Assembly: GCF_002272135.1 (NCBI RefSeq)
Contig: NZ_NPBF01000004.1
Coordinates: 186,001-250,000 of the forward strand
Direction of reading: 5' to 3'
DNA: 64,000 bases
Source: Virgibacillus sp. 7505
GTDB lineage: Bacteria > Bacillota > Bacilli > Bacillales > Amphibacillaceae
Every line of letters begins with the position of its first letter. Position 1 is the first letter of the stretch. Positions 12,997-49,437 of this stretch are shown here, one piece after another. The notes below the pieces were generated by a model, which saw only the letters and a list, made by a program, of their open reading frames with translations, was not told where the DNA came from and ran no database searches. The position numbers and the translations under genes were made by a program.

Positions 12997-13776
12997 TTAC
13001 ACTTGCTTCCTTGATCTAATCAACTCTTCCACTTGCTGTCTGTCTCCTTGATGCAATGCATCGACAATCTTACTTCCGACCACTACTCCATCACAATATT
13101 GGCTCAGTTCCTTCACATGCGCTGGTGTAGAAACTCCGAAACCAGCCAGTACTGGTGCGTTGCTGATTTTTTTCAGCTCCTGCAGATGTGTTCCCAGCTG
13201 ATCGACGAATGTCGCTCTCTCCCCTGTGGTACCTGAAACTGTCACGGCATAAAGAAAGCCTTCAGCGCGCTCAGCGAGTGCCCGGATCCTTTCTGGTGTA
13301 CTGGTCAAAGCGACCAAACGGATCAGAGCTATTTCATGCTTTTGAAGGGCTTCGACAACAAGTCCTTCCTCTTCAAGCGGCAGATCAGGCAGGATAAGAC
13401 CAGATATCCCTGCTGCAGCACAGGCTGACGCGAAGTCTTCCACACCAAAGGCGAAGACTGGATTCAAGTACGTCATGATAACAAGCGGCACATGGCAGCT
13501 GGCTTTTTCCTTAGCAACCTCATCGAGTACTGCACGGACAGTCGTGCCTGCCTCCAATGCGCGAATTCCAGCTGCCTGGATAGTTGGCCCGTCTGCGACT
13601 GGATCTGAAAAAGGAAGACCAAGCTCGATTGCTGTTGCACCACTATCAGCAAGAAATTGAATGCGTTCATTCAAACTGTCCAAGCCGCCATCACCAGCCA
13701 TTATATATGGTACGAAAGCTTTTTCCCCAGCTTGTGATACCGTTTGAAATGCATTATCCAGCATAGCTTTACTCAT
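12997..13776 (-). CDS. trpA: Tryptophan synthase alpha chain
   Basis: 259 residues. Cleaves indole-3-glycerol phosphate to indole and glyceraldehyde-3-phosphate inside the alpha2-beta2 complex. Catalytic Glu51 and Asp62 lie in [17 protein letters not shown]. Later motifs ([23 protein letters not shown]) fit the family. I start at the ATG at 13776, 6 bases after AGGAGGAGA; the longer frame to 13797 would place the ribosome site inside the gene. It overlaps the end of trpB by 8 bases. Last gene of the operon. Confidence 0.97.
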
Positions 13777-14983
13777 ACAGATCTCCTCCTGTTTCATGCG
13801 CTTCCCTGATTGTGTTTACATCCTTATCCCCGCGTCCGGACAAACAGACAACAAGCACATCCTCTCCACCCATCACTGGCGCCAGCTTTTTACAGTATGC
13901 GACTGCATGCGCGCTTTCCAGTGCTGGTATGATTCCTTCTGTTCTGGATAGAAGTCGCACAGCCTCTAGCGCTTCTTCGTCGGTAACAGCATCGTACGTA
14001 ACTCGACCAGCATCTTTTAAATAGCTATGCTCCGGACCGACGCCTGGATAATCCAATCCGGCCGAAATGGAGTGAGGCTCCTGTACCTGACCGTCTTCAT
14101 TTTGAAGCAAATAGGATAATGATCCATGCAGAATTCCCGCTTTCCCCTCTGTAAGAGAGGCTGCATGCTTACCTGTTGGTAGCCCCATACCTCCTGCTTC
14201 CACACCGTACATTTTAACACCGCGATCATCCACGAACGGATAGAACATGCCAATTGCGTTACTTCCTCCTCCAACGCAGGCAACAATTGCTTCCGGCAGC
14301 TTGCCTTCTGCCTCGATGATCTGCTTGCGGGTTTCATCGCCGATAATCCGCTGGAAATCACGGACGATTTGCGGGAATGGATGCGGGCCGGCAGCTGTAC
14401 CGAAAATATAATGTGTATCTTCTACATTCGCCGTCCAATAGCGCATCGCTTCGTTTACTGCATCCTTCAAGGTGCCGTTACCCTGATCGACGGATACGAC
14501 TTGAGCGCCTAAGAGCTCCATCCGGTATACGTTCAATGCTTGTCGTCTGACGTCTTCTTTTCCCATGAAGATGATGCATTCCAATCCTAGCAACGCACTG
14601 ACTGTCGCAGTGGCAACACCATGCTGGCCAGCGCCTGTTTCCGCCACAACCTTTTTCTTGCCCATCCGCTGTGTGAGCAACGCCTGCCCGATTGTGTTGT
14701 TGATTTTATGTGCCCCTGTATGGTTAAGGTCTTCTCTTTTCAAATAGATCCTCGGTCCGCCAAGAGTTGCTGTTAAGCGTTCTGCAAAATAAAGCGGGGT
14801 CTCCCGTCCGATATACTGTTTCAAGTAATAGCGCATCTCTTCTTGGAAGGCAGGATCTCCCTTCGCTTCCTTGAATGCTTCTTCTAGTTCCAAGATGGCT
14901 GGCATGAGTGTTTCTGGTACAAATCGGCCGCCAAAGCTTCCATAATGCCCGGTTTCTGTCGGATATGTTGCCATGTTTTTCAC
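13769..14983 (-). CDS. trpB: Tryptophan synthase beta chain
   Basis: 404 residues. Condenses indole and serine to tryptophan using PLP; the PLP lysine is Lys93 in HTGAHKINN, and the phosphate-binding GGGSNA loop follows later. The start is GTG at 14983, overlapping the trpF stop as GTGA, which suggests translational coupling; an ATG three codons in is an alternative. Standard trpB1-type length. Partner of the trpA product encoded next. Confidence 0.97.
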
Positions 14984-15588
14984 TGTCCTCTCTTTGCCGC
15001 TGTAATGAATTGTTTTATTTTAATCGGATCCTTTTGTCCATCTGTCTCCACGCCGCTGCTGACGTCGACCCCAGCAGGACTCACTTCCTCAATCGCCTGC
15101 TGTACATTGCCAGCATGCAATCCGCCTGCAAGAAAGAGCCTTTCCCTCGGAATTGTTTCTGAGCTTGCCAGCGACCAGTCGAATGTGGTGCCGTTCCCTC
15201 CCCTATATGCTTCAGCCGGACTATCCAGCAGATAATAATCACATGGGTAATCAGCCAGCTGCTTCAGGTCATCCTCTGAACCTACCGAAAAAGCTTTAAT
15301 GACAGGCTTGCGGATAGCTTTAATGTAGTCTGGTGTTTCGTCGCCATGCAGCTGAATATAATCCAGTTCTGCCGTCTCGGCTATGACCAGCAAACTCTCG
15401 ATCGGCTCATTGACAAATACACCTACTTTTTTCACATGATCTGGAAGCTTTTTCCCGATGCCGGCAGCTTGCTCAGGTGACACTCTCCGTCTGCTGTCCG
15501 CAAAAACGAATCCGATCATATCAGCTCCTGCAACCACCGCTGTCTGCCCAGCCTCCACAGACTGAATGCCGCAAATCTTGACGATCAT
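14980..15588 (-). CDS. trpF: Phosphoribosylanthranilate isomerase
   Basis: 202-residue TIM-barrel enzyme, third committed step of tryptophan synthesis. The general base is Cys7 in MIVKICGIQ and the acid is the Asp in [11 protein letters not shown] context (GVDVSSGVE). It overlaps trpC upstream by 4 bases (ATGA type) and trpB downstream by 4 bases. It is a separate gene, not fused to trpC as in enterics. Confidence 0.96.
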
Positions 15589-16367
15589 GACTGCTCCGCT
15601 CCAACCGGAACTTGGAGTGTCTCCAGTACTGCTGCTATATCGTCAGCTCGCATAAGTGTTTCCCCAACAAGGATTCCCCTTGCCCCTGCTTTTGCTGCAC
15701 GAGATGCATCAGCTGATACCGTTATGCCGCTTTCGCTGATAACAAGAATATTTGAGGACTCAATTCTCTCTATCAATCTTTCTGTTACACCCAAATCCAC
15801 CTCGAAGGTTTTTAGATTTCGATTATTGATGCCGATGATATTGGCACCAAGCTTCTGCGCTTGCTCTAATTCTTCTTCATTGTGCACCTCTACCAGCACA
15901 TCCATCTCTTTGGATTTTGCATACTGATAGAGAGCGTGCAATCGCTCTTCTTCCAATGCCGCTACAATCAATAGAATTACATCAGCACCATAATCAGCTG
16001 CTCGGTCTATCTGAATTTCATCAAGGATGAAATCTTTATTCAATATCGGTACTTCCACTGCCTCCCGGACAGCTGCCAAATCATCCATCGTGCCTTTGAA
16101 AAACGGTGTATCAGTCAACACTGAAATTGCACCCGCTCCTGCGGCTTCGTAAATCTTTGCCTGGTCCGCAGGTACAACATCGGGATTGATCATTCCTTTG
16201 GAAGGTGAAGCACGCTTGATTTCTGCGATAATCTGCAGCTGTTTCTGTTCTTTGAATCGTTCATATAACGATATCGGCTTGCGCTGCGCTGCTGTCGGTC
16301 GATATGTTTGCTTCATTGTACTAATTTCCGTTCGCTTCTCTTCTAGTATCCTTGCTAAGAATGTCAT
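15585..16367 (-). CDS. trpC: Indole-3-glycerol phosphate synthase
   Basis: 260 residues. TIM-barrel enzyme closing the indole ring. Family motifs: IAEIKRASPSKG near residues 46-57 (substrate-binding Lys and Ser), VLTDTPFFKG, NKDFI and GINNRNL. It overlaps trpD and trpF by 4 bases each, so the run is tightly coupled. Cytosolic. Confidence 0.97.
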   Translation of the reverse strand: MTFLARILEEKRTEISTMKQTYRPTAAQRKPISLYERFKEQKQLQIIAEIKRASPSKGMINPDVVPADQAKIYEAAGAGAISVLTDTPFFKGTMDDLAAVREAVEVPILNKDFILDEIQIDRAADYGADVILLIVAALEEERLHALYQYAKSKEMDVLVEVHNEEELEQAQKLGANIIGINNRNLKTFEVDLGVTERLIERIESSNILVISESGITVSADASRAAKAGARGILVGETLMRADDIAAVLETLQVPVGAEQS

Positions 16368-17383
16368 GATCTCACTTCCCTTTGTTTATAATCGATCAAG
16401 TATTGCAGTTTCTGTCTAGCAGCTCCGCTATCAATGCTTTCCTTAGCAAGCTCGATGCCTTCCTGTATAGAAGCCACTTTTCCATTCGCAAATATGCCAA
16501 GTCCTGCATTCAAAACCACTGTGTCCCGATGGACACCTTTCTCCCCATTCAACACACGCAGCAGAATGTCTGCATTCTCAGCTGCATCACCGCCCTTGAT
16601 TGCTTCAAGCGGATAAACCGGCAGGCCAACCTCATCCGGATGAAGAGTGAAAGCTGTCTGTTTACCGTCCTCCAGCAGGACAAGATGGTTCTCTCCTGCA
16701 AGTGATGCTTCATCCATATATCCTGCTCCATTAATGACAATCGCTCTTTTGCGTCCCAGCTTATGGAGCGCTTCGGCCATCATCCCAAGCATATCGCGGC
16801 GATAGATGCCGAGCAGCTGTGAATCAAGCTGGACCGGATTCGTCAATGGCCCGATTAAATTAAAGATCGTAGGAATTCGCAGTACTTTGCGCAGCTGCAT
16901 CACCTGCTTCAGACCTGGATGAACATGAGGCGCGAATAAAAAGGCGATACCATTCTCCTCAAGCAGATGCGTCATCTCCTCTGCCGGCAAATACAATGGG
17001 ATCCCCAGCTTCTCCAGTACATCCGCACTTCCGGTTCTGCTTGATATGCTGCGATTCCCATGTTTGGCAATCGTAATACCCGCTCCAGCAATGACAAAGG
17101 CTGCAGTCGTACTAATGTTGAAGCTTTGCGATCCATCGCCTCCGGTACCGCAGTTATCCATCACATTTGCTGCCTGAAGGGGAATTGTCTGCGCTTTTTC
17201 CCGAATTGCAGCCACCATACCAGCTACTTCATCCGCTGTTTCCCCTCGGGTTTGCAGCATCGAAAGAAATGCACCTGCCACAGCATCAGGCATACTGCCA
17301 TCCAGCAATTCCCGGGATGCCTGCAGCGTTTCTGCATATGTCAAAGCCTGTGTATTCGTAAGCTTAGCCAATAATGGTTCCAT
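16364..17383 (-). CDS. trpD: Anthranilate phosphoribosyltransferase
   Basis: 339 residues, the usual length. Transfers phosphoribose from PRPP to anthranilate. The PRPP loop is DNCGTGGDGSQSFNIST at about residues 82-98, and the anthranilate site KHGNRSISSRTGSADVLE follows. It overlaps trpG by 20 bases. It is a stand-alone protein, not fused to the glutamine amidotransferase. Confidence 0.97.
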   Translation of the reverse strand: MEPLLAKLTNTQALTYAETLQASRELLDGSMPDAVAGAFLSMLQTRGETADEVAGMVAAIREKAQTIPLQAANVMDNCGTGGDGSQSFNISTTAAFVIAGAGITIAKHGNRSISSRTGSADVLEKLGIPLYLPAEEMTHLLEENGIAFLFAPHVHPGLKQVMQLRKVLRIPTIFNLIGPLTNPVQLDSQLLGIYRRDMLGMMAEALHKLGRKRAIVINGAGYMDEASLAGENHLVLLEDGKQTAFTLHPDEVGLPVYPLEAIKGGDAAENADILLRVLNGEKGVHRDTVVLNAGLGIFANGKVASIQEGIELAKESIDSGAARQKLQYLIDYKQREVRS

Positions 17384-17966
17384 TACTTTCCCCTTCTTTC
17401 ATGGTTAGGATATAATGCTTCACGATCTCCTTACCTGCTTCTGTTCCGATTGATTCCGGGTGGAACTGCAGTCCGTAAACCGGATAGCGGATATGCTGGA
17501 CAGCCATGATTTCCTCGTCATCCTCTGAATAAGCGGTAACTTTCAATTCATTCGGAATATTGTGCTTATCGATGACTAGAGAATGATAGCGCATGATCGG
17601 CAAATCCTTAACTATCCCTTCGATTGCAGGTTCTCCCTCATATCGAAGCGTCGATGTCTTGCCATGCTTGATTTGCCCTGCACGGATAATGTCCGCACCG
17701 AAGGCTGTACCGATTGCCTGGTGACCAAGACATATGCCGAGTATCGGAATTTTTCCTGTAAAGTGGCGGATTGCATCGACACATATTCCTGCATCTTCCG
17801 GTCTGCCCGGACCAGGTGAGACGATGATTGCCTCGGGTTTCAATGTTTCGATGTCCTGGATGGAGATTGCATCGTTACGTACAACCTTGACTTGTTCCCC
17901 AAGCTCCGCTGTGTATTGGAAAAGATTATACGTAAAAGAATCATAATTATCGATCAGCAGTATCAT
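17364..17966 (-). CDS. trpG: Anthranilate synthase glutamine amidotransferase subunit
   Basis: 200-residue class I amidotransferase that feeds ammonia to TrpE. Catalytic triad visible: Cys79 in ILGICLGHQ, His169 and Glu171 in LQFHPES. It overlaps trpE by 20 bases. In B. subtilis the operon lacks this gene and an amphibolic PabA in the folate operon does the job; here a dedicated copy sits in the trp operon. Whether it also serves folate synthesis depends on whether a pabA exists elsewhere. Confidence 0.94.
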   Translation of the reverse strand: MILLIDNYDSFTYNLFQYTAELGEQVKVVRNDAISIQDIETLKPEAIIVSPGPGRPEDAGICVDAIRHFTGKIPILGICLGHQAIGTAFGADIIRAGQIKHGKTSTLRYEGEPAIEGIVKDLPIMRYHSLVIDKHNIPNELKVTAYSEDDEEIMAVQHIRYPVYGLQFHPESIGTEAGKEIVKHYILTMKEGESNGTIIG

Positions 17967-19350
17967 GTAATCCGACCTCCGTTAAAGATTTCGCTTTATG
18001 CAGCGTCTCGTGATATTCTGTCTCGGGGTCGGAATCATACACTAGTCCGGCTCCCGCCTGTACATACGCCTTGTTGTCTTTTATGATCATCGTTCGAATA
18101 GCCAGCGCCAGATCGAGATCGCCATTCATATTTATATAGCCTACCGCCCCGGCATAGAGCCCTCTTTTTTTCTTTTCAAAATGATTGATCAATTCCATTG
18201 CCCTAATCTTAGGAGCACCTGATACGGTTCCAGCAGGAAGTGCTGCAACCAATGCGTCCAATCCAGTCATATTATCTGCTAGTTCTCCTTGTACTTCAGA
18301 GACGATGTGCATGATATGCTGGTACTTTTCCACCGTCATATACTTTGTCAGCTCGACGGTGCCGACCTTACACACACGTCCCAGATCATTGCGGCTTAAG
18401 TCGACAAGCATCCGATGCTCTGCCAATTCCTTTTCATCGGCCAGCAGTTCAGTCGTCAGCTGTTCATCTTGCTCTGTCGTTTTACCACGGGGCCTTGACC
18501 CAGCAATCGGGTTAGCTGTCACTTTATTGCCGCTAGCTTTGATCAAGCTTTCAGGGGAAGCACCGAGTACGGTATAGTCCTCAAAATCGAGGAAGAACAT
18601 ATACGGCGAAGGATTGCTAGCCCGAAGCTTTCGGTAAAAGCTGAAAGCATCTCCATGGAAGTCTGCTGTCAATCGCTGCGAAAGCACTATCTGGAATACA
18701 TCACCGGCTTTGATGTACGCCTTGGCATCTTCCACCATCTGCATAAATGTTGCTTGATCCGTCTCAGGCTGGAAATAGACTGGCTTCAATACTGCATCGG
18801 GTATGTTCTTGAAGGTTGTAATCTCTCGCTCCATAACCTCCAAACGAGCCTGGAGCATATCCGCCGACCGGTTTCTCGCGCCATCAATAGCCAGTAAAGT
18901 GATCTGCTGATGCTTATGGTCATAAATGATGATATCCTCATAAAACATAAAATGAACTTCCGGCATACCAATCGGATCCTCTGGCACTTCTCCAATCACT
19001 TCGTATTGCCGGATCGAATCATATGCCATATATCCGACAGCACCGCCATAGAAAGGAAACTCAAGCGGCAGCTCCATTCCGCTTATCTGTTTCTTCAGAA
19101 CCTCTAACGGTTTATCTGCCAGCTTCTCTTCCTGTCCTGAAGACTTCAGCGTTGTATCCTGTCCCTGCCCAATCAATTCTTTATAAGGATTAGCTCCAAT
19201 GATGGAATAGCGACCCTTTCCTGTATGGTGTACCGAACTTTCCAGCAAAAACTTCTTTTCTCCTGCCAGCCGTTTATAAATTACGACAGGTGTGAGTGTA
19301 TCTCCGTTCAATTGCTTCTTCTGAAATCGAACACTATCCGTAACCGTCAT
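17947..19350 (-). CDS. trpE: Anthranilate synthase component I
   Basis: 467 residues. Converts chorismate to anthranilate with ammonia from TrpG. The tryptophan feedback element LLESS is at about residues 34-38, and the chorismate-binding core shows PIAGSRPRGKT, ELAEHRMLVDLSRND and AGTVSGAPKIRAMELI. I start at the ATG at 19350 because AAAGGGAG lies 8 bases upstream; the frame is open to 19398 but that segment encodes the T-box terminator. First gene of the operon. Confidence 0.96.
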   Translation of the reverse strand: MTVTDSVRFQKKQLNGDTLTPVVIYKRLAGEKKFLLESSVHHTGKGRYSIIGANPYKELIGQGQDTTLKSSGQEEKLADKPLEVLKKQISGMELPLEFPFYGGAVGYMAYDSIRQYEVIGEVPEDPIGMPEVHFMFYEDIIIYDHKHQQITLLAIDGARNRSADMLQARLEVMEREITTFKNIPDAVLKPVYFQPETDQATFMQMVEDAKAYIKAGDVFQIVLSQRLTADFHGDAFSFYRKLRASNPSPYMFFLDFEDYTVLGASPESLIKASGNKVTANPIAGSRPRGKTTEQDEQLTTELLADEKELAEHRMLVDLSRNDLGRVCKVGTVELTKYMTVEKYQHIMHIVSEVQGELADNMTGLDALVAALPAGTVSGAPKIRAMELINHFEKKKRGLYAGAVGYINMNGDLDLALAIRTMIIKDNKAYVQAGAGLVYDSDPETEYHETLHKAKSLTEVGLHDTADR

Positions 19351-19374
19351 CTTTTTCGCTCCCTTTTCTTTGAA

Positions 19375-19655
19375 ATAAAAAAACCGTCCCCTATGCACAT
19401 GATTGGTTCATGTGCATAGGGGACGGTTTTACACCGCGGTGCCACCTCTATTGAAAGCTCTTTTGCTTTCCTCTCATTCGGATACGAAAGCTTTAGCCTT
19501 GATATCCTATCCCGGTAACGGGGGAAGCCGGATTCCCCTACTATGTTTCAAGGAATCTCTCTGAAGTCCATTCCATGCTGCCGATTTGACCTGGATCTCA
19601 CCACACCAGGCTCTCTGTGCAAATCAAGCAGCATGTACTCCTCTTCATCAACGAG
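19375..19655 (-). promoter_or_regulatory. Promoter-proximal-to-trpE tryptophan T-box leader
   Basis: Second of two tandem T-boxes read in the minus direction. Seen in order: AGAGGAGTA near 19640, the stem I distal region with AGAGAGCC and GGTG, a specifier loop GAATGGACTTC with TGG (Trp) at 19570-19568, the T-box sequence AGGTGGCACCGCGG at 19447-19434, then a terminator with a ~21-bp stem and a run of T (19429-19375). Uncharged tRNA-Trp would pair with the specifier and the T-box bulge and favour the antiterminator, allowing trpE transcription. Confidence 0.93.
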
Positions 19656-19664
19656 TTATGTGTA

Positions 19665-19910
19665 TAAAAAAAGGGCAATCTCTCCAATAAAGGACGAGAT
19701 TACCCGTGGTACCACCTTTGTTAGCTAACGAACTAGCTCACTTTGCTCCTGCTATCGGGGGAGTTGCCGCCACAGCCTACTGGTCATTTCAGCTATGGTG
19801 CTCGGAAGTCCATTCACGTATGTGTCACACCGGTTTCCACCATCCACCGGCTCTCTGAAGTGACCACATAAGCTACTACTCTTCGTCTTCGCTCACGTAT
19901 CAGATATGTT
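19665..19910 (-). promoter_or_regulatory. Upstream tryptophan T-box leader (first of tandem pair)
   Basis: A complete T-box unit upstream of the other. Visible: AGTAGTAGC near 19875, CAGAGAGCCGGTGG (stem I distal part), specifier loop GAATGGACTTCC with TGG at 19812-19810, T-box AGGTGGTACCACG at 19717-19705, and a terminator stem GGGTAATCTCGTCC with GGAGAGATTGCCC (one bulge, one G-U) followed by seven T. Both units carry the same codon, so transcription must pass two tRNA-Trp checks in series. Confidence 0.92.
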
Positions 19911-19916
19911 GGATTC

Positions 19917-19945
19917 ATTGTATTACCCTTGTTTTCATTTGTCAA
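19917..19945 (-). promoter_or_regulatory. Sigma-A promoter of the trp operon
   Basis: Minus strand: -35 TTGACA (19945-19940), 17-base spacer, -10 TACAAT (19922-19917). Start of transcription expected near 19910, giving a ~560-base leader holding both T-boxes. It lies against the end of the helicase gene. Confidence 0.85.
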
Positions 19946-19952
19946 GGGCAAT

Positions 19953-21104
19953 TTACTCTGCATCCAGTAAATCAGGCTTGCCATTCTCTCCGAAAACAAG
20001 TTCTTTTCGCGGCAGATGCTGTTTTGTTTCTTTTTCAATTTGTTTTATTTGATGTCTGTCGCGAGGTGTCACAAAGGCTACCGTTAAGCCCGTACTGCCT
20101 GCCCTGCCTGTACGGCCGATGCGGTGGATATAGCTTTCAGTATCCTCCGGAAGATCGTAATTGAATACATGGGTCACACCTTCAACATCCAACCCCCGAG
20201 CTGCTACATCTGTTGCAACAAGGAACTGCGTCTTATACTCCCGGAAATTCTTCATAGCACGTTCCCGCTTTGCTTGTGATAAATCACCATGCAGTTCATC
20301 CGATTCGAAACCCTGCGCGCGCAAATACCCATGCAGCTCAGAAGCACGTCTTCTTGTCCGGCAGAAGATAATAGCAGCAAATGGACGATACATTTGCAAT
20401 AACACCTTCAATGCATTCCGCTTCTCACGATCAGACATTTCCAGGACAATCTGCTTTATTTCCTTCAGAGTCACATTGGTTGTTTGAATGGTGATTTCCT
20501 TTGGCTTTTGCATCTGGGAGGATGCCAGCTGGCGGATTTCCTTCGGCATTGTAGCAGAGAACAGCAGTGTTTGTTTCGTATTCGGCAATGCATTTGCAAC
20601 GTCCTTTACATCATGCCAGAATCCCATATGCAGCATCTGATCTGCCTCATCCAGCACGAATGTCCGGACATGGGAAAGATCCACTGTGCCGCGCCGCATA
20701 TGGTCGAGCAGACGTCCCGGTGTCGCGACAACGATATCCACTCTGCCTTCCAGCTTCTTAAGCTGCTTGACGATATCCTGACCGCCATAGACTGCCAACG
20801 TACCAATTTCTTCTTCCGGATGAATCAGCTTCGCCAGTTCATCATAGATCTGGATAGCCAGCTCCCTCGTCGGGCTCAGAATAAGTGCCTGAATGCCAGC
20901 ACTATCAGCTTCCAGCATTTCCAATATCGGCAGCAGGAATGCAAGTGTCTTACCAGTACCTGTCTGTGCTTTGGCAATCACATCTTTTCCAGCCAAAATT
21001 TCTGGAATAGCTTGCTTTTGAACAGGTGTTGGTTCTGTCAGACCTAATTTATGTAATATTTCCAAACGATTATTTTGTAAGTTCAGATCATTGAACACGT
21101 TCAT
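19953..21104 (-). CDS. DEAD-box RNA helicase (YfmL/CshE type)
   Basis: 383 residues, nearly only the helicase core, without the long basic tail of CshA. Motifs in order: Q motif (GLTEPTPVQKQAI), I AQTGTGKT, Ia PTRELAIQ, II VLDEADQM, III SAT, V TDVAARGLD, VI HRIGRTGR. The short size and spacing fit the YfmL-like group, linked in B. subtilis to ribosome assembly and cold growth. Start at 21104 after AGAGGGAA. Its 3' end touches the trp promoter. Confidence 0.92.
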   Translation of the reverse strand: MNVFNDLNLQNNRLEILHKLGLTEPTPVQKQAIPEILAGKDVIAKAQTGTGKTLAFLLPILEMLEADSAGIQALILSPTRELAIQIYDELAKLIHPEEEIGTLAVYGGQDIVKQLKKLEGRVDIVVATPGRLLDHMRRGTVDLSHVRTFVLDEADQMLHMGFWHDVKDVANALPNTKQTLLFSATMPKEIRQLASSQMQKPKEITIQTTNVTLKEIKQIVLEMSDREKRNALKVLLQMYRPFAAIIFCRTRRRASELHGYLRAQGFESDELHGDLSQAKRERAMKNFREYKTQFLVATDVAARGLDVEGVTHVFNYDLPEDTESYIHRIGRTGRAGSTGLTVAFVTPRDRHQIKQIEKETKQHLPRKELVFGENGKPDLLDAE

Positions 21105-48199: not shown

Positions 48200-49219
48200 T
48201 CAAATCGAGTTATCGCGCATTTCCTCGACTAATGGCATGATTTCCTTAGTAAAACGTTCCATTTCCTGCTTGTGCGGCGAAAATTGAAGCAGCAGAAGAC
48301 TGACGCCGGCATGCTCGTAGGCAAGTATCCGCTGCGCAATTTGCATCGGCGTCCCAACCAGATGCGGCCGCAAGCCCCTTGCAGAAACAGCATCGTCGCT
48401 GATCTTGCTTTTTTGTGCCAGCTCTTCCTCTGTTACATATGATTCGTAATCCGCACCGGTAATTCTTTCCCATTCCTGGTAAGCTTCTTCCTCCGTTTCG
48501 CGGCAAATGACATAAGCTGTCATGCCAAATTCTGTAAACGGAGACTTGCCGGCTGCTTCACGGCGAATCTGCATATCAGCGATCATACTGGCCACTTCCT
48601 GTACAGTACCGCCCTTCATTACATAGGCATCGCATGTCTCGGCAATTGTCTGTCGTAAATAGTCGCTCTCGCCGCCTGCGTATAATGGCGAGATCTCTTT
48701 GCTCTTGCCAGCTGGTAAATAATCGACGTGCTGAACTTGATAGTACAAACCATCATAGGTGTAATTGCCAGCTGCCCAAACTCCGCGCAGCACTTCGAAA
48801 AATTCCTCGGTTTGCATATAGAAATCCTCTGATCCAGCGATATCGCCATCTTGGCGCTTTTGTTCCTCTTCGCGCAAGAAAGAAACGACTGCCAGGGAAA
48901 AACGGCTATTACTTACCTGATCAATCATTACTGCTTGTCTCGCGGCTTCCGCGGGCTGATCAATGCTCGGCCGGACTGCTGCCATGATGTGCAGTCTATC
49001 GGTTGCTTCCGCAATAGCACCAGCAGCTTCCCAAAAGTTAAGCTGCTGATCGGCATTTTTCCCTTGGTATAGGTAGGTATCTGGAAGAAAGACGGCATCG
49101 AACCCTAAATCCTCCGCCAGATGCGCCGTTTCCTGCACATCTGACAAACTTAGCGGTCCACCATCCTCCACATGACGCAGCCAGCTGCTTGAAACTGGCT
49201 GCCAGTATGCATATTTCAT
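48200..49219 (-). CDS. LLM-class FMNH2-dependent monooxygenase (SsuD/SfnG-like)
   Basis: 339 residues of the bacterial luciferase-like TIM barrel. N-terminal YWQPVSSSWLRHVEDGG, then VFLPDTYLY, RLHIMAAVRPS and YAGGESDYLRQ follow SsuD/SfnG-type monooxygenases that release sulfite from sulfonates or sulfones using FMNH2. The SAM riboswitch directly upstream ties the gene to sulfur limitation, which strengthens that reading. No ssuABC importer or flavin reductase is adjacent. Start at 49219 after AAAGGAG. Confidence 0.88.
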   Translation of the reverse strand: MKYAYWQPVSSSWLRHVEDGGPLSLSDVQETAHLAEDLGFDAVFLPDTYLYQGKNADQQLNFWEAAGAIAEATDRLHIMAAVRPSIDQPAEAARQAVMIDQVSNSRFSLAVVSFLREEEQKRQDGDIAGSEDFYMQTEEFFEVLRGVWAAGNYTYDGLYYQVQHVDYLPAGKSKEISPLYAGGESDYLRQTIAETCDAYVMKGGTVQEVASMIADMQIRREAAGKSPFTEFGMTAYVICRETEEEAYQEWERITGADYESYVTEEELAQKSKISDDAVSARGLRPHLVGTPMQIAQRILAYEHAGVSLLLLQFSPHKQEMERFTKEIMPLVEEMRDNSI

Positions 49220-49274: not shown

Positions 49275-49437
49275 TAAAAAAGCTTCTTCGATGAGGAAGA
49301 AGCTCTGTATTGCAGCCGTCGTCATCTTATCACGCAGCTTTCGCTGCAGGTCGTAGCACCTTCCTGCAGGACTGCCCTCCTGCAGTGGGTTGCCGGGCTT
49401 CATCGGGCCTTTCCCTCCGCCACTCGTTATAAGATTT
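49275..49437 (-). ncRNA. SAM (S-box) riboswitch
   Basis: Minus strand, 5' to 3': ATCTTATAACGAG, GGCGGAGGGAAAGGCCCGAT, GAAGCCCGGCAACC, AAGGTGCTA, GACCTGCAGCGAAAGCTGC, GTGATAAGAT: all conserved S-box blocks, with P1 formed by the first and last. A terminator follows (AGCTTCTT / AAGAAGCT at 49304-49281, then TTTTTT). High SAM should stop transcription of the monooxygenase gene. Confidence 0.95.

Follow-up and report, generated by a model that had tools for sequence, protein, structure and literature searches.

Introduction

In bacilli, two or three T-boxes precede trpE and thrZ (PMC2494555), and tryptophan biosynthesis is the pathway most significantly under the control of contiguous riboswitches, by way of tandem T-boxes in Bacillota; where trpE lies under contiguous T-boxes, 99% of the arrangements are double and 1% triple (PMC12452182, which lists Gutierrez-Preciado, Yanofsky and Merino 2007, on tandem Trp T-boxes, as its reference 37). 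Tandem riboswitches for one ligand have been described by a pseudo-cooperative scheme (PMC9481103), and a 2020 review states that the modes of action of tandem T-boxes remain unknown (PMC7583486). In a single T-box, the bulge, UGGN, base-pairs to the NCCA end of the tRNA such that the N of the bulge faces the discriminator base, which it usually matches; 46% of Trp T-boxes carry U against G73, wobble therefore being allowed, and the text consulted does not state which ones these are (PMC7778990). Each of these sources is cited, here and below, for the sections of it that we consulted.

The locus described here belongs to this known class. A first-pass annotation of a 64,000-nucleotide stretch of DNA from Virgibacillus sp. 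7505 (the window) had placed two tandem Trp T-boxes at 19375-19945, before trpEGDCFBA, and had noted that tandem Trp T-boxes are known in some other Bacillales, which the sections consulted of PMC12452182 and PMC2494555 bear out in print. Ahead of the trp operon we find a pair of complete Trp T-boxes, one after the other, an arrangement that is ordinary and already known; a conserved asymmetry between the two units is slightly unexpected.

Results

Two complete Trp T-boxes before the trp operon

Scanning with cmscan against the Rfam model RF00230 (gathering score 93) gives two matches in the leader, both of which exceed the cut-off over the full length of the model. The features of the leader and operon, all of them on the minus strand, are as follows.

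19917-19945, minus strand: promoter, -35 TTGACA, 17-nt spacer, -10 TACAAT (11/12 consensus matches)
19687-19898, minus strand: T-box unit 1 (upstream), complete Trp leader (RF00230, 137.1 bits, E 2.1e-30, model 1-219)
19810-19812, minus strand: specifier TGG (Trp) of unit 1, within GAATGGACTTC
19711-19714, minus strand: T-box bulge TGGT of unit 1, variable base U at 19711
19673-19705, minus strand: terminator 1 hairpin, then T run (-20.9 kcal/mol)
19416-19660, minus strand: T-box unit 2 (downstream), complete Trp leader (RF00230, 130.5 bits, E 1.1e-28, model 1-219)
19568-19570, minus strand: specifier TGG (Trp) of unit 2, within GAATGGACTTC
19441-19444, minus strand: T-box bulge TGGC of unit 2, variable base C at 19441
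19382-19428, minus strand: terminator 2 hairpin of at least 20 pairs, then T run (-41.7 kcal/mol)
17947-19350, minus strand: trpE, anthranilate synthase component I, first gene of the operon (TIGR00564, 593.9 bits)
17364-17966, minus strand: trpG (TIGR00566)
16364-17383, minus strand: trpD (TIGR01245)
15585-16367, minus strand: trpC (NF001371)
14980-15588, minus strand: trpF (NF002300)
13769-14983, minus strand: trpB (TIGR00263)
12997-13797, minus strand: trpA (TIGR00262)

The position first assigned to the leader is right, and its parts are those that had been described. The two TGG specifiers lie in the same local sequence and fit the downstream gene trpE; each unit has its own T-box sequence, the two being GGTGGTACCACGG and GGTGGCACCGCGG, and its own terminator, a hairpin followed by T, of which a simple scan reported terminator 2 in full and terminator 1 as a 5-pair stem only. 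The promoter, called near-consensus at first reading, directly follows the upstream helicase gene's stop codon; shuffled regions average 0.7 (sd 1.0) promoter-like sites of at least 9/12, and the scan reported no second such site within 19330-20000, including the stretch between the units. The seven-gene order trpEGDCFBA, with overlapping gene ends, is upheld by NCBIfam profile matches, from which the genes are named. Rfam matches to mir-2068 at terminator 2 of three loci were set aside as chance (32.9 bits vs a cut-off of 99).

Judged by the identity of its trpE, which is 92-93% with the closest named relatives, three Terribacillus saccharophilus strains, and 87% with T. halophilus, the host is a member of the genus Terribacillus. 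In its draft genome (578 contigs), 19 of the 27 T-box matches exceed the cut-off, and serial T-boxes also occur at other places. Three in series (L001, L008 and L005; G000:C16:1938-2698) precede an ORF that resembles, by eye, an APC-type amino-acid permease, with U as the variable base in all three and, also by eye, a GAATTAC stretch near the specifier position; two in series (L012 and L024; G000:C8:70565-71037) precede an ORF that by eye is threonyl-tRNA synthetase-like and thrZ-like. Elsewhere in the window, a SAM riboswitch (RF00162, 68.7 bits; 49324-49435, minus strand) precedes a luciferase-like monooxygenase gene (48200-49219), for which the best NCBIfam match, SfnG, does not reach its cut-off.

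Prevalence of the double leader

Exactly two T-boxes were found in 30/30 trpE leaders (the host, 8 genus genomes and 21 others; E up to 0.01). Forty further upstream regions of trpE/pabB-type genes comprise 12 with two T-boxes and 28 with none; over the 70 such regions of the home order, 42 have T-boxes, each of the 42 has two, and there is no leader with exactly one. Six second copies (G039, G040, G041, G053, G032 and G020) among 76 trpE/pabB-type matches were left out of this sample, which includes two short upstream stretches (L140, 996 bases; L145, 561 bases). Only 2 of the 84 units in the 42 tandem leaders, in L048 and L135, score under the cut-off. A phylum-wide search added two tandem matches, with C upstream in both. 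Upstream of a relative's second trpE/pabB-type gene (L149), group II intron matches lie within about 800 bases.

The proposition that trpE always has two T-boxes is rejected outside the home order: among the matches listed in the class sample, six loci of family f30 (L327, L329, L332, L335, L336 and L338) carry only one Trp T-box ahead of a trpE-like gene. Because of these six loci, serial T-boxes are not obligatory for the pathway.

Descent of the two units

To compare the units with each other, we used 93 tandem pairs assembled from searches of relatives, the order and the class, the order and class parts being among the matches listed. A trpE match lies downstream in 84 of them, four more (L125, L134, L135 and L142) come from trpE places, and the other five, all members of family f196, lie before a different gene, trpD-like by eye in L308. 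The class sample comprises 40 places beyond the loci given, among the matches listed. Left out were repeats (L165, L186, L192, L194, L196, L197 and L303-L305), one listed match that was not considered a T-box (G582:C18), places with no T-box (L181, L283, L284, L286, L289, L292 and L300) and, from the pairs, L344, which is in three fragments. Because of its shortness, one unit of L177 is missing from the tree; it also gave no base, which leaves 92 downstream units and 92 determined pairs.

On a FastTree phylogeny of 185 units, one branch (support 0.997) has the 93 upstream units on one side and the 92 downstream units on the other, without exception among the matches listed. Recent duplication of one unit from the other is rejected, as host units 1 and 2 are 54% identical to one another, less than the medians of 66% and 62% that they share with units of the same position elsewhere. 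In five alignment columns, upstream and downstream units each keep a different base in at least 85% of cases among the matches listed, and three of these columns are in the antiterminator. Two of the three make up a single pair of helix A1, which is A-T in 93/93 upstream units and, in the 92 downstream units, G-C in 87, G-T in 3 and A-T in 2, and the base after the bulge ACC is A in 85/93 upstream and G in 88/92 downstream units (both among the matches listed). The idea of a weaker helix A1 in unit 1 was dropped, since host unit 2 has an A-C mismatch beside this pair (by eye). As judged from the tree and the alignment, the two units are old, diverged paralogues of separate descent, and neither is a copy of the other. 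With 115 single Trp T-boxes included in the tree, the downstream units stay together (92/92 with 6 singles, support 0.992) and the upstream units are loose (90/93 with 3 singles, support 0.064), again among the matches listed; given the latter support, the separateness of unit 1 from single T-boxes is not secure. The first-pass annotation had described both units as complete T-box leaders, as they are, and had not remarked that they are diverged paralogues and that their bulge bases differ. In two relatives (L045 and L048), unit 1 has the T-box GGTGGCATAACG in place of GGTGGNACCRCG, departing from the T-box core; these two also have C upstream and U downstream.

If one unit did all of the regulation, the other being a decaying or passive duplicate, one might point to the single T-box that precedes the host's trpS (L011, gene named by eye), to the six f30 trpE-like genes with only one T-box among the matches listed, and to the wobble that unit 1 has at the discriminator position. 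The motif GAATGG (GAANTGG in the class sample), which holds the specifier, is nevertheless present in both units of 91/93 pairs, and a hairpin of -12 kcal/mol or lower stands before a T run behind 182/186 units, compared with 5/186 shuffled controls (both among the matches listed); in addition, 0/70 home-order trpE/pabB-type regions have exactly one T-box. We therefore consider it unlikely that one unit works alone, and favor two working units. Terminator 2 is the more stable of the two in 72/93 pairs among the matches listed.

The base facing the tRNA discriminator

No tRNA-Trp gene was found in the host draft genome of 578 contigs, and its discriminator base is taken from relatives, in which G73 is present in 32/32 distinct tRNA-Trp gene copies read (28 relatives, including 8 copies in 4 genus genomes), as found by a search with one fixed pattern, of whose matches part was read and which could miss a divergent copy. 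The copies come from 30 loci minus L088, L092 and L110, which are not tRNA-Trp (L088 unscanned), plus 8 stretches, less three repeats. Set against G73, the UGGU bulge of unit 1 would form a G.U wobble and the UGGC bulge of unit 2 a G-C pair. On the strength of this single base pair, the grip of unit 1 on the tRNA end is predicted to be the weaker. Grundy, Rollins and Henkin reportedly found in 1994 that, in a B. subtilis tyrS leader with a Trp specifier, a T-box base matched to G73 improved induction.

It is also conceivable that the units read different tRNA-Trp isoacceptors, one with A73 and one with G73, as might be expected from their different variable bases, U and C, given that this base usually matches the discriminator base (PMC7778990). 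Both units carry the UGG specifier, however, and a second tRNA-Trp with A73 behind the U of unit 1 was not found among the 32 distinct copies read, every one of which, including the 8 in 4 genus genomes, has G73. Two isoacceptors are thus a very improbable cause of the difference, and we favor tRNA-Trp with G73, which would meet a wobble in unit 1 and a G-C pair in unit 2.

How general this asymmetry is depends on the family. Among the matches listed, the upstream and downstream bases of the home-family pairs (n=43) are U,C in 35, C,C in 4, C,U in 3 and U,U in 1, whereas C,C is commonest outside the home family (32/49, against 10/49 for U,C); all determined pairs (n=92) comprise 45 U,C, 36 C,C, 10 C,U and 1 U,U. 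U upstream with C downstream is accordingly rejected as a general rule. Since the pattern is limited in this way and single Trp T-boxes also carry U (30 of 114, the other 84 having C, among the matches listed), tandem position may explain a share, and no more than a share, of the 46% of Trp T-boxes that carry U, at least in the home family. A search of the literature, outside which most subscription papers lay, found no link between the U/C base and tandem position.

One might ask whether the two bases are coupled. Double U (1/92 pairs) is rarer than independence predicts among the matches listed (Fisher p = 0.007, with kinship ignored). On the tree, unit 2 changes to U eight times, and at the end of seven of these branches unit 1 carries C (p = 0.03, from end-of-branch states set against branch lengths assigned by start-of-branch state); scored by start-of-branch state, the same eight changes give 5/8 with C in unit 1 and no signal, and the clustering of unit 2 changes scarcely exceeds that seen after shuffling (8 vs a mean of 10.6, minimum 8), all among the matches listed. 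The evidence for coupling of the two bases is weak.

TRAP and anti-TRAP

The operon had been proposed to answer to tRNA-Trp charging and not to TRAP as in B. subtilis, and a search of the genome for mtrB and rtpA supports this. Neither TRAP (PF02081) nor anti-TRAP (PF15777) has a match in the host draft genome, the B. subtilis control being positive for both; TRAP was found in 0/9 Terribacillus genomes (the host and 8 others); and TRAP-spaced (G/T)AG triplets in the leader never run to more than two in a chain. Hence neither the mtrB gene with clustered (G/U)AG triplets of a TRAP-controlled trp operon nor the rtpA gene of anti-TRAP control was found here. TRAP is widespread in relatives, being present in 41/61 genomes of the wider sample, and one might imagine that it governs this operon as in B. 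subtilis, with the T-boxes secondary; but with no TRAP match in the host or the 8 other genus genomes and no triplet chain in the leader, we regard this as extremely improbable. Because TRAP and anti-TRAP were not found in the host, nor TRAP in any of the nine genus genomes, attenuation by uncharged tRNA-Trp is the best reading, and on these searches tRNA-Trp, not TRAP, is well supported as the signal for the operon.

The 59 genomes with a trpE match (six second-copy trpE/pabB-type matches of the 76 being left out) divide into 20 with tandem T-boxes without TRAP, 22 with both, 17 with TRAP and no trpE T-box found, and 0 with neither. TRAP is thus also encoded in 22/42 genomes with tandem Trp T-boxes at trpE, so tandem T-boxes by themselves do not exclude TRAP control.

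Discussion

The leader is very probably composed of two typical transcriptional T-box riboswitches in series that read uncharged tRNA-Trp before the trp operon. Transcription would start just downstream of 19917, and unit 1 would be made first. With charged tRNA-Trp the transcript would end at terminator 1; uncharged tRNA-Trp would pair both with the UGG specifier and, by means of the GCCA at its 3' end, with the T-box bulge, thereby favoring the antiterminator and allowing polymerase to reach unit 2. Unit 2 would then repeat the charging test before trpE, such that full expression would need uncharged tRNA-Trp to be read by both units, and the two read-through probabilities would multiply, giving lower basal expression and a sharper response, as in the pseudo-cooperative scheme of PMC9481103. 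We infer the tRNA binding, the antitermination and the product of the two tests from established T-box biology; the low basal level and steep switch that the first-pass annotation expected from two serial terminators are reasonable. The units might also divide the labor, the wobble unit requiring more uncharged tRNA and so setting the threshold, and the stronger terminator 2 guarding against leak.

We tentatively suggest, as a possibility that we hold to be less probable than its opposite, that the units are non-redundant: that they stem from one old duplication, have since stayed separate and differ in tuning where they meet the tRNA 3' end, with G.U as a stringent gate and G-C as a sensitive gate, double wobble being avoided and the wobble-bearing unit being able to swap. 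If true, this differential tuning would mean that position in the tandem explains part of the G.U exception noted for Trp T-boxes. Two single bases, 19711 and 19441, follow from the fixed differences as places to test whether the gates differ in tuning; if they do not, the leader is one more well-kept tandem attenuator.

The closest system to that described here is the tandem Trp T-boxes of Bacillota trp operons (PMC12452182), which likewise have complete serial Trp T-boxes before trpE of trpEGDCFBA; only the species and details differ, not the arrangement, and the sections of that paper that we consulted do not mention unit-specific T-box bases. The host's own trpS leader (L011, gene named by eye) is also an RF00230 T-box, with N = C, but has one unit, which is 56% and 57% identical to the two trp units. 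The trp operon of B. subtilis, controlled by TRAP and anti-TRAP, serves the same pathway and also senses uncharged tRNA-Trp, through the T-box of the anti-TRAP gene, so far as the sources consulted go; here, in contrast, TRAP and anti-TRAP were not found and the T-boxes sit on the trp operon itself. Finally, the locus resembles the pseudo-cooperative tandem riboswitches, as described in the sections consulted of PMC9481103, in having independent serial switches for the same ligand; it differs from them in that the ligand is a tRNA, that the units have diverged at the point of ligand contact, and that the arrangement is known here from sequence.
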